The notes under the pieces: generated by a model | Database searches by the model: none | Told to the model about the DNA's origin: nothing | Seen by the model: the letters and a program-made list of their open reading frames with translations, nothing else | Assembly: GCF_037969725.1 (NCBI RefSeq) | Contig: NZ_CP150203.1 | Location: forward strand, 6,191,501-6,255,500 | Length of the DNA: 64,000 nt | Direction: 5' to 3' | Source of the DNA: Paenibacillus sp. FSL W8-0426 | Lineage (GTDB): Bacteria; Bacillota; Bacilli; Paenibacillales; Paenibacillaceae | In this document: one piece after another, positions 33,007-47,627 of the stretch | How positions within the stretch are numbered: the stretch's first letter is position 1 | Layout: each line of letters begins with the position of its first letter | Program-made: the position numbers and the translations under genes

Positions 33007-33150
33007 GCGCACACCACTCCGATTGCAGTACCATCTTCCGATCTTCGTTATCCCCGGATTTTTTGATCACCCTATAAACGGGCAAATCCGGTGATAAAGG
33101 CGAGCGCTTCGCTTCTCCAGATTGGTTCTGCACTCTCCGTTAATGCACAA
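33007..33150 (+). repeat. Structured intergenic repeat, copy 1
   Basis: Shares with copies at 42052 and 47436 the order GCAGTACCATCTT, CGATC, GTTATCCCC, GATTTTTTGAT, a CCC/GGG mini-stem, AAATCCGGTGATAAA, and CTTCTCCAGATTGGTTCTGC. Two nested helices are visible: TTATC..CGGATTT with AAATCCG..GATAA, and GCAG-ACCA-TCT with AGATTGGTTCTGC. The terminal repeats seen in copy 3 are missing here. It lies between argF and argG. Confidence 0.75.
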
Positions 33151-33225
33151 ACATCAAATCCACTTCTATCAAAAAATATAATTAATAAATAATGATAAGT
33201 CTCGCTTGCTCTATCATCGCTAACC

Positions 33226-33256
33226 CCGCCCTCAAAATCAACCATTTTGAGGCAAA
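33226..33256 (-). terminator. Hairpin after argF
   Basis: CCTCAAAAT/ATTTTGAGG (33230-33238 with 33244-33252), extended by weaker outer pairs, starts about 10 bases past the argF stop. There is no clear T-run, so it may stabilise the upstream mRNA or weaken read-through into argG instead of terminating strictly. Confidence 0.5.
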
Positions 33257-33262
33257 CGGCGG

Positions 33263-34228
33263 TTATTCGCTCATTAACGCGGCCATCAAGGCCTTCTGTG
33301 CATGCAAACGGTTCTCGGCTTGATCGAAGATGACGGAGTTCGGGCCGTCAATGACGCCTTCGCTCACTTCTTCGCCGCGGTGCGCCGGCAGGCAGTGCAA
33401 GAACAGATAGTCCGGCTTTGCGCCTTTCATCAATTCTTCGTCCACTTGGTAGGCCGCAAATGCTTGCTCGCGCACTTTTTGCTCCTCTTCAAAGCCCATG
33501 CTCGCCCATACGTCCGTGTATACCACGTCCGCGTCCTTCACAGCTTCATGCGGATCGTAAGTTACCGTAACTTCAGAGCCGCTTTCCTTCGCGATGCTGC
33601 GTGTCTGCTCTACGATGGCGCTGTCCGGCTCGTATCCCTTCGGCGTAGCGACTGCGACATGGATGCCCATTTTCGCCGCGCCCAGCATGAGGGAATGCGC
33701 CATGTTGTTGCCATCGCCCACGTATGCCAGCTTCAAGCCTTCAAGCTTGCCTTTGTGCTCCAGCACCGTTTGGAAATCAGCCAGCACCTGGCACGGATGG
33801 GCTGCATCGCTCAGACCGTTGATGACCGGAATATCGGCATGTTCCGCCAGTTCAGTCACGTTATGGTGTCCGAACGTACGGATCATGATTCCGTCCAGAT
33901 AGCGGGACAATACTTTCGCCGTATCATGCGTCGTCTCTCCGCGACCGAGCTGAATATCGTTTTTGCTGAGGAACAGCGCGTGTCCGCCCAACTGGAACAT
34001 GCCTACTTCAAAAGATACCCGCGTACGCGTGGACGATTTTTCGAAAATAAGTCCGATCGTTTTGCCTTTCAGCGGCTGATAAGGCACGCCGTTTTTCTGT
34101 TTTCCTTTGATCTCGATGGCCAGATCGAGCAAATAACGGATTTCCTCTGCCGTATAGTCCGTGAACTCGATGAAATCCCGGCCTCTAAGGTCGATTTTTT
34201 TGATTTCGGTTTGCGATGCTTGCGTCAT
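33263..34228 (-). CDS. argF: Ornithine carbamoyltransferase
   Basis: 321 residues with the carbamoyl-phosphate site SSTRTR near residue 62, GHHNVTELAEH, and the ornithine-binding FLHCLPAHRG near the C-terminus. AAGGAGG lies upstream of the ATG. It makes citrulline from ornithine and carbamoyl phosphate. No carAB genes for carbamoyl phosphate are in this block, unlike the B. subtilis argCJBD-carAB-argF operon. Confidence 0.97.
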   Translation of the reverse strand: MTQASQTEIKKIDLRGRDFIEFTDYTAEEIRYLLDLAIEIKGKQKNGVPYQPLKGKTIGLIFEKSSTRTRVSFEVGMFQLGGHALFLSKNDIQLGRGETTHDTAKVLSRYLDGIMIRTFGHHNVTELAEHADIPVINGLSDAAHPCQVLADFQTVLEHKGKLEGLKLAYVGDGNNMAHSLMLGAAKMGIHVAVATPKGYEPDSAIVEQTRSIAKESGSEVTVTYDPHEAVKDADVVYTDVWASMGFEEEQKVREQAFAAYQVDEELMKGAKPDYLFLHCLPAHRGEEVSEGVIDGPNSVIFDQAENRLHAQKALMAALMSE

Positions 34229-34348
34229 TATTCGTATCCTCCTTCATTCCGGTTCCCTGCACCCGCCTGGGCAGAAAAGAAAACCCATTCTCTTCTGCAT
34301 TCTCACGCGGCGCCATGCGGCTGCAGGGATTCAGCTGTACATGTTCAC

Positions 34349-34373
34349 CCGGAGGGCCGGAAGTGGCCCCCGG
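34349..34373. other. GC-rich hairpin between argD and argF
   Basis: CCGGAGGGCC pairs with GGCCCCCGG (one mismatch) around GGAAGT in the 196-bp argD-argF spacer. It has no T-run, so it is more likely an mRNA processing or stability element than a terminator. Confidence 0.4.
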
Positions 34374-45972: not shown

Positions 45973-46710
45973 GGTATACCCCTTTCGTGCAAAACAGAAT
46001 AGCCCCCCTGTTGCCGCACAGCGGCATCTTCGGATGATATCATCCACTTGCCCGGGGGTGACAATGTAATACAATACTATGAGATGAATCAACTCCAGGC
46101 TTGCAAGGGTCCCTCATGAAGCCGATTCGGTATTCAACCGGACCCGGGCCCATCCAAAATGAATCCGGAATCCAAGCCGGACGAATCATGTTCATGGTGC
46201 TGTGCCTGTCATTGATAATGATTGGTGATCATTCGTTGACAATTCCCCATCAGGACAATGATTCTCTTTCATAAATTGTAACAGTTTGTAAGAGACGCCG
46301 CAACACGGCACGGCCGACTTCTTTGATCTTTCGCCGCTCCTTTGGATGAAGAATAGTGCAAAAAATCATAGCCGTTAGCCGAAGCGTTCGCCTTCATAAG
46401 CGCATTCAAATCAAAACGTCCTCAGTATGAGGTTCTTTGGCGGGAAACTGGATCGCATTAGGTATGCTAGTCGCAAACCTGAGATTATATCCTACCCATG
46501 TATTAGACGCAGAAGCATAGGGAATAGTTTCACTAAACGGCATCCGAAACTTTTTCCACTCCTCCTAGGAAAATCCAAAACCAAAAGAGCCCCATCCCGA
46601 TTGGATGTAGGCTCTTGTTATATCGGATCCAGGAATCAAAGATTCCCCATGTTCAAGTACGTATTAAATTAAGTATTCATTTCATACCGCAAGCGTTTGA
46701 AACAAGCCCA
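45973..46710. other. secA-hpf intergenic region
   Basis: No credible gene in 738 bp. The portion next to secA should hold its promoter, but no good -35/-10 pair was recognised. GGGTCC/GGACCC (46107-46144) can form a weak stem, and the hpf terminator is at 46575-46614. Confidence 0.5.
46575..46614 (-). terminator. Intrinsic terminator downstream of hpf
   Basis: On the minus strand AAGAGCC-TA-CATCC pairs with GGATG-G-GGCTCTT around AATCG and is followed by TTGGTTTTGG. It lies about 100 bp after the hpf stop. Confidence 0.65.
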
Positions 46711-47271
46711 TTATCCTTGCTCGATCAAACCGTATTTTCCATCATTCCGTTTGTACACGACGCTAACCTCTTCATTCTCAATGTTGGAAAAAACAAAGAA
46801 ATTGTGGCCGACCATGTTCATCTGCAGAATGGCTTCTTCCACATCCATCGGCTTCAGCATGAAACGCTTCGTCCGGACCACTTCCAGATCGTCGTCCACT
46901 TCGGCATCCAGCTCGGCTGTAGCCGCAATTCCGGTGGGATCCTCCACAAAGAAGTTTTTCAGGCCGCTGTCCTGGCGGAACTTGCGGTTCAATTTCGTTT
47001 TATGTTTGCGAATCTGACGTTCCAGCTTGTCAATGACAGCGTCAATGGAAGCGTACATGTCATCGCTCTTGTCTTCGGCGCGGAGCACCAGACCTTTCAA
47101 AGGAATCGTTACTTCCACCGCATGCAAACCTCTGGTCGTACTTAAAGTAACCGTACCGTCAGAGTTAAGGGGTGCATCGAAATACTTCTCGAGTCTGCTC
47201 AATTTTTTGTCGACGTAATCTCTCAAAGCATCGGTAACCTCGATTTGTTGACCTCGAATACTTAAATTCAT
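46711..47271 (-). CDS. hpf: Ribosome hibernation promoting factor, long form
   Basis: 186 residues from ATG 47271 with AAAGGAGGAG upstream. The N-terminal S30AE/RaiA domain spans about 1-100 (MNLSIRGQQIEVTDALRDYV, basic KHKTKLNRKFR). The C-terminal dimerisation domain spans about 125-185 (VVRTKRFMLKPMDVEEAI). Long HPF dimerises 70S ribosomes into inactive 100S particles. Corresponds to B. subtilis YvyD, which sits between fliT and secA. Confidence 0.96.
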   Translation of the reverse strand: MNLSIRGQQIEVTDALRDYVDKKLSRLEKYFDAPLNSDGTVTLSTTRGLHAVEVTIPLKGLVLRAEDKSDDMYASIDAVIDKLERQIRKHKTKLNRKFRQDSGLKNFFVEDPTGIAATAELDAEVDDDLEVVRTKRFMLKPMDVEEAILQMNMVGHNFFVFSNIENEEVSVVYKRNDGKYGLIEQG

Positions 47272-47301
47272 AGGGCACTCCTCCTTTTCCTTTGCTCCTT
47301 C

Positions 47302-47331
47302 ATTATACCACGAATGTAAGCGCCATGTAAA
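47302..47331 (-). promoter_or_regulatory. hpf promoter
   Basis: On the minus strand: TTTACA (47326-47331), an 18-bp spacer, and TATAAT (47302-47307), about 31 bases before the ATG. It looks like a vegetative sigma-A promoter; I did not find a sigma-B-type pair. Confidence 0.68.
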
Positions 47332-47435
47332 AACTCCGGGTGTCCGAATAATGACATCTGCACGAGCCAGTTCTTCCAGCATAGGCCAATCGCCATATTT
47401 CGCGATTTCTCGCCATTTTTAGGCGTTATCCTTGA

Positions 47436-47627
47436 TATATAAACCCCACTAATCAATCACACAAGGCCACTGCGAGCGCAGTACCATCTTTCGATCGCTG
47501 TTATCCCCCGATTTTTTTGATTCCCTTTTTCTAAGGGAAAAATCCGGTGATAAATGCGAACGCTCCGCTTCTCCAGATTGGTTCTGCCTCTCCGTTAACG
47601 TGTGTATGTTTTTTTGCGGTTTATATA
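47436..47627. repeat. Structured intergenic repeat, copy 3 (most complete)
   Basis: A 192-bp imperfect palindrome bounded by TATATAAACCCC at the left and GCGGTTTATATA at the right. Inside are CACAC/GTGTG, GCAGTACCATCT/AGATTGGTTCTGC, TTATC/GATAA, and TTCCCTT/AAGGGAA pairs in nested order. No protein is encoded. It is MITE-like in layout, or a structured RNA; transcription is not shown. Confidence 0.78.

Follow-up and report, generated by a model that had tools for sequence, protein, structure and literature searches.

Three similar intergenic stretches in a window of 64,000 nucleotides, the whole piece of the Paenibacillus sp. FSL W8-0426 chromosome analysed here, raise the question of whether they are kept alike by selection on a folded structure or by the movement of a mobile element. 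A sequence-only reading of this DNA had noticed that the three copies follow the same order of blocks and that their inner stems differ yet remain paired, and had taken this as the mark of either a selected structure or a hairpin-propagated element, with many dispersed copies and TA target duplications named beforehand as support for a MITE. The results described below confirm that observation and reveal a family larger than had been stated; what the reading missed is that the likely RNA strand is the opposite one, that copy 2 is truncated, and that an optional 39-nt module exists. The features concerned are the following.

47436..47627, likely RNA strand minus: copy 3, the complete element (form A), with terminal inverted repeats
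47455-47608, minus strand: covariance-model match of copy 3, 153.3 bits
47436-47445, plus strand: left terminal inverted repeat of copy 3, TATATAAACC, the consensus end in other copies
47618-47627, plus strand: right terminal inverted repeat of copy 3, GGTTTATATA, the consensus end in other copies
33003..33153, minus strand: copy 1, a core with no recognisable TATATAAACC ends, in the spacer preceding argG; model score 139.1 bits
42052..42167, minus strand: copy 2, truncated, with a TATATAAACC end at 42052-42061, assigned from the sequence
31729..32964, minus strand: argG (argininosuccinate synthase), the gene that follows copy 1 when the likely RNA strand is read; NCBIfam NF001770, 599.6 bits (cut-off 334)
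41053..41958, minus strand: gene of unknown family, downstream of copy 2, from our own gene calls
46711..47271, minus strand: hpf/yfiA (ribosome hibernation-promoting factor), downstream of copy 3; NCBIfam TIGR00741, 110.1 bits (cut-off 40.9)

All three copies are present where they had been placed and match one covariance model on the minus strand of the window. Copy 2 is truncated, with the left end, left arm and inner stem present and the right arm absent; its match (42071-42224, minus strand, 40.6 bits) is weak. The palindromic ends of copy 3 are not recognisable in copy 1. The differing but paired inner stems (CCC/GGG, CCCC/GGGG and TTCCCTT/AAGGGAA) are seen in the copies as described. 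Copy 3 folds with z = -5.6 on the plus and -6.2 on the minus strand, the latter being sense to both adjoining genes, and copy 1 ends 16 nt from the called argG start after 22 nt are added for its ends. The gene at 41053..41958 on the minus strand gave no match in an NCBIfam search at 1e-10. A promoter-like site lies between copy 3 and hpf, of which a simple scan expects equally many by chance, and copy 3 therefore need not sit in the hpf leader. A terminator function of the element was also considered and rejected, since the scan around copy 3 placed its one terminator-like hit, like its one promoter-like hit, outside the element.

The family extends far beyond the window. In the host genome, a single contig of 6.91 Mb, a 27-nt block taken from the left arm has 48 exact matches and a 34-nt block 69 at up to three mismatches, with none in either reversed control, and the 13-nt end occurs 142 times at up to one mismatch (reversed control, 11). 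The covariance model finds 137 matches at E <= 0.01, the best at 3.3e-47, a count that may be a lower bound because only 150 of the 2329 first-look candidates were scored. None of the 137 lies wholly inside a called gene (own simple gene finder), in agreement with the earlier placement of the copies in spacers. When Paenibacillus genomes were searched with the model, 36 of 36 same-genus genomes, the window's own included, had matches, many standing at 51 matches from 51 scored candidates, as did 6 of 23 genomes from other genera of the order; in a class-wide sample searched at 1e-4 with stricter filters, 27 of 299 matched, all 27 in the host's own family. A pattern scan of named genomes gave at least 120 stretches, and among the matches listed 80 of 80 were from Paenibacillus. 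The sequence-only reading knew no named family for the repeat, and no Rfam family fits: the window has no match in Rfam 15 at gathering score, the element stretch has one chance match of 13 bits at E <= 10, and the sole match among 16 distant loci at E <= 0.01 is a T-box outside the element. Among the literature matches listed, there was no recognisable paper on this repeat.

A typical copy (form A) is about 190 bp long with ends TATATAAACCGC...GCGGTTTATATA (among 30 copies listed), which are the terminal inverted repeats of complete copies; the length ranges over about 190-230 bp and, judged from the sequence only, there is no coding sequence. Form B carries an additional module, a hairpin of about 39 nt with the sequence GCCTATGCTTCCGATGCAGCTTTCTTTCAGAAAGCTTTT or a close variant of it; a 36-nt part of this module occurs 65 times in the genome at up to three mismatches. 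In form C all sequence between two CCAGATT copies is gone. The same genome holds a second subfamily with GTTGAAC-type ends, and other species have further arm sequences. A conservative motif test shows members both with and without the module in 6 of 29 orthologous clusters, and its state is discordant in 15 of 94 orthologous pairs. In one such comparison (L019/L105), the surroundings are more than 99% identical and the switch is exact except for one adjacent substitution, as expected from gene conversion or template switching between copies, by which we infer it arose. At four loci (L050, L062, L089 and L110) the module was found by eye at a second place in the core. A module look-alike in reverse orientation was also noticed by eye in G051, a genome from another family of the order.

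The element is mobile and inserts at TA, which is duplicated relative to clean empty sites. In Paenibacillus sp. JJ-223, a form B copy running from TATAAACCGC to GCGGTTTATA stands between ...CCTA and TAGC... (L090), where the window's genome reads ...CCTAGC... (L324), so that the target TA is duplicated at the filled site, and two pairs of the GTTGAAC subfamily (L113/L145 and L159/L125) show the same duplication. Clean filled and empty sites were obtained in 3 of the 12 pairs listed, the others being degenerate, the same site again, or involving larger changes. Both the duplications and the many dispersed copies that had been named as support for a MITE are thus found. In G051, the core lies within elements with ends AGAGCGTGTTCAAAAAG; nine copies have paired ends, although some are shortened or lack the core, and perfect 3-bp duplications flank six of the nine but not the other three. 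The core is therefore carried between two kinds of ends, TA-duplicating in Paenibacillus and 3-bp-duplicating AGAGCGTGTTC in the other family. A search of the window's genome for two transposase families found neither an IS630/Tc1-type DDE_3 transposase (PF13358) nor a Y1 transposase (PF01797) of the REP/RAYT or IS200/IS605 type. The stretch at 1737062-1738507 (L211), the sole long end pair among the ends listed, was rejected as an autonomous partner, being without a transposase and having ends that resemble two broken arms. Loss of the autonomous partner is common for MITEs.

The structural half of the earlier proposal was examined with 103 A-form cores (27 from the window's genome, the rest external), of which 47 with pairwise identity below 87%, aligned by sequence, made up the alignment and covariance model; the 44-pair structure was obtained from RNAalifold, with the side hairpin re-drawn by hand. 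Standard pairs occupy 94.3% of 2053 cells, 30 of the 44 pairs have changed on both sides, and both-side-changed cells number 115 against 20.1 ± 4.0 after shuffling. When partners are slid by 1-3 columns, pairing falls to 32-46%, a control that favours the structure because the structure was fitted to the same alignment. In an alignment of 144 model matches from the host's own loci, which is model-fitted and includes short antisense matches, 33 of the 44 pairs have changed on both sides (141 cells versus 37.7 ± 5.3 shuffled). Distant copies retain a motif close to G(A/G)AGAAGCG..AGCGTTCGCCTTTG ... CAACAGCGATCGGAAG while their helices differ, and four of four folded alone gave z from -3.5 to -6.1. 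The core structure is thus held by compensatory change across species and genera, and, with pairing above both controls, selected structure and mobile element both stand.

Orientation points to the strand on which this structure is likely to be used. By our own gene caller, 86 of the 137 copies are sense to both neighbours and 17 antisense to both, with 19 at convergent and 15 at divergent sites; the bias is already there in full copies with 92% or more identity to the consensus, of which there are 37 (25 sense, 2 antisense, 10 other). At 30 distant loci, which amount to about 24 independent ones because they include two overlapping and four orthologous pairs, 24 copies are sense to both neighbours, 5 convergent, 1 divergent and none antisense. 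A further 87 external loci, including L141-L180, some nearly identical to the window's genome, divide into 64 sense, 9 antisense, 7 convergent, 5 divergent and 2 unclear, and in JJ-223, among 27 loci listed, the corresponding numbers are 14, 3, 3, 6 and 1. At one distant locus (L263), the copy comes after a T-box leader match (1081-1371; at 68.7 bits below the gathering score, which is 93) and before the next gene, which starts at 1711 and is presumably alaS as judged by eye; the copy hence lies in a probable leader transcript. From these sense-orientation counts and the cross-species excess of G-U over A-C given below, the RNA strand is likely the reverse complement of the strand on which the repeat was first read.

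The explanation that we favour, and consider rather probable, is a MITE-like non-autonomous family of Paenibacillus and its relatives with a structured RNA as passenger. The element probably works through its RNA, in a manner that we infer as follows. A transposase acting in trans would move the element through its ends. On sense copying into mRNA, the transcript would form a rod some 150 nt long, marked by a G-A-rich internal loop that is conserved and by a small side hairpin, GC-GAA-GC (GC-GNNA-GC in distant genera), and a putative factor would recognise the folded core RNA. Such recognition may allow the host to tolerate, or to profit from, insertion between co-directional genes, often near a start codon, for example because it determines how the transcript is cleaved or how stable it is, and antisense insertions would be avoided or lost fast. 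Selection would act on the lineages that spread, after which most single insertions would drift. Several observations count against this explanation, namely a G-U excess within the host genome that is near background, near-neutral orthologues and an orientation that also tracks replication. The promoter-like site between copy 3 and hpf and the negative search for IS630-type and Y1 transposases are further points against it.

It is also conceivable, if unlikely in our estimation, that the family is a plain MITE whose structure matters only as DNA. The palindromic ends and arms would then be recognised by the transposase, hairpin-templated correction would keep the stems complementary, and the orientation would reflect selection against transcribing the other strand. 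The TA duplication and the inverted repeats are in accord with such an element. The wobble pairs bear on it from both sides, as a folding sense RNA should tolerate G-U more than A-C on that strand. The ratio of G-U to A-C is 60:17 among the 47 cores and 65:24 for the distant set, and 138:62 and 38:19 in two sets of own-genome copies, and with the richest pair removed it becomes 41:15, 59:23, and 78:59 and 22:19, respectively. Matching substitutions in unpaired columns stand at 102:63 (47 cores), 33:29 (distant) and 178:124 (own), so that the own-genome excess is near the mutational background, which suits a plain MITE, whereas the cross-species excess is above it, which does not. A folded single DNA strand at replication could yield the same asymmetry, RNA being the simpler reading. 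Single copies diverge near-neutrally, as a plain MITE would: in 34 orthologous copies, 42 of 5473 element sites differ, compared with 154 of 13546 sites in flanking non-coding DNA and 261 of 30895 in coding sequence, a deficit that arises largely because external loci were chosen for having an exact match of 27 nt. Single copies are thus under weak purifying selection at most, and single insertions look nearly neutral. Against structure acting only as DNA speak unpaired bases and a side hairpin that are conserved in genera with wholly different helices, and one core between ends of two kinds.

We regard as improbable a single-stranded-DNA element, in which the lagging-strand template would expose the folding strand to a hairpin-recognising enzyme that moves it, in the manner of IS200/IS605 or REP/RAYT systems. 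With replication direction taken from a skew flip between 3.24 and 3.63 Mb in 45 sampled loci, the model strand runs with replication in 106 of 137 copies, and at 16 of 19 convergent and 9 of 15 divergent sites, as such an element might require. Among copies with both neighbours on the leading strand, 79 run with the genes and 15 against them; with both on the lagging strand, 7 follow the genes versus 2 that follow replication, which speaks against it. By these counts the effects of transcription and replication are not cleanly separated. The strand-specific wobble would also fit, as would the side hairpin, since the GCGAAGC type is a very stable DNA mini-hairpin. However, TA is duplicated on insertion and 3 bp in G051, target duplications are not expected of Y1 transposases, and the window's genome has no Y1 transposase.

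A host cis-regulatory RNA, that is, a leader or intercistronic control element spread together with its genes, has very little probability left. It would explain why, of 101 copies followed by a sense gene, 51 stop 10-60 nt short of the start codon (element ends being estimated as the model match plus 22 nt), why some copies are orthologous between species and why one follows a T-box match; upstream, 24 of 105 copies begin 10-60 nt from the stop of a sense gene. As the sole account it is ruled out by the clean insertions at empty sites, and it is further opposed by antisense, convergent and divergent sites, by the near-neutral divergence, and by downstream genes without a common theme among those examined (18 of the 44 listed close sense genes, together with those that follow copies 2 and 3 in the window). 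Domestication of single copies is conceivable. A chance resemblance produced by gapped alignment has practically no probability, being ruled out by the reversed controls (0 versus 48 and 69 matches) and by model E-values down to the 3.3e-47 noted above.

Beyond the MITE-like family with its passenger RNA, we speculate, though we think it unlikely, that the RNA module is older than its present transposon ends, at least two kinds of which have acquired it (TA-duplicating TATATAAACC or GTTGAAC, and 3-bp-duplicating AGAGCGTGTTC). It might bias where the element inserts or survives towards the sense strand of transcripts, perhaps in an RNA-guided or transcription-coupled way, with the 39-nt hairpin as a swappable cassette.

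The repeat is a new family of MITE-like elements whose conserved core is RNA-like, and for which the nearest in kind, by their descriptions, are the BOX and bcr repeats. BOX of Streptococcus pneumoniae is dispersed and MITE-like with a predicted stem-loop RNA, has an optional internal boxB module that varies between strains at one locus, and is expressed within transcripts and thought to affect co-transcribed genes (PMC3049150). The Paenibacillus element is likewise dispersed and MITE-like, with a predicted stem-loop RNA and an optional internal module. It differs in its unrelated host, in a name and anatomy that by description are unrelated, in one internal-loop core conserved over an order, in ends of two kinds, and in a module of about 39 nt that occurs once or twice per copy in the copies seen. 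The bcr1-bcr18 families of the Bacillus cereus group are intergenic repeats, of which bcr1-bcr3 are described as MITE-like and as frequent in UTRs or operon spacers, and bcr10 and bcr18 have conserved secondary structure (PMC3446304). Both they and the present element are intergenic repeats in a Gram-positive spore former, but mobile-like and conserved-structure features, which by this description belong to separate bcr families, are here in one element. The RUP, ERIC and Correia elements have TA targets, and we know of no order-wide conserved internal-loop core in them. Orientation-dependent transcript cleavage has been reported near ERIC, and RNase III cleavage for Correia elements (PMC3049150). 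All three are small and palindromic like the Paenibacillus element, and have other hosts and other ends.

Counting G-U and A-C on either strand of a repeat family, with unpaired columns as the reference, offers a simple way to tell RNA-level from DNA-level constraint and is usable on other MITEs. With more than 100 structured insertions in one genome, Paenibacillus has a counterpart to BOX in the pneumococcus and to bcr in Bacillus cereus, and the empty sites in close relatives make it a system for asking how mobile RNA structures alter transcripts. Conservation of the core across an order, while all helices change, implies a recognising factor that could potentially be isolated.

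Between copy 3 of the repeat and the downstream hpf gene, a promoter-like site, TTTACA-18-TATAAT, lies on the minus strand at positions 47331-47302 of the window and matches the consensus at 11 of 12 positions; chance alone would also be expected to produce one site of this kind over the region scanned around copy 3.

Elsewhere in the same genome, a left and a right repeat arm flank a gene, which was identified by eye as encoding a LacI-like regulator (G000:C1:1737062-1738507, equivalent to positions 1563-3008 of locus L211), with the element ends pointing toward each other across 1446 bp. 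At another locus, L007 (near 6307766-6308100), the insertion is nested, the inner loop of an older copy holding a second copy. Beside a distant copy in genome G005, a match to a T-box leader (L263:1081-1371; 68.7 bits, the gathering score being 93) is located upstream of both the repeat copy and an alaS-like gene.

Variant forms were observed among the AGAGCGTGTTC elements of G051, a genome from another family of the order (loci L398, L402, L405, L407, and L410), including shortened forms, elements carrying a look-alike of the optional hairpin module in reverse orientation, and elements in which the inner core is seemingly turned round. Several form C copies, e.g., those at L051, L053, L056, L057, and L058, share an identical internal deletion between two CCAGATT repeats, which may reflect either recurrent deletions or a single spreading lineage.
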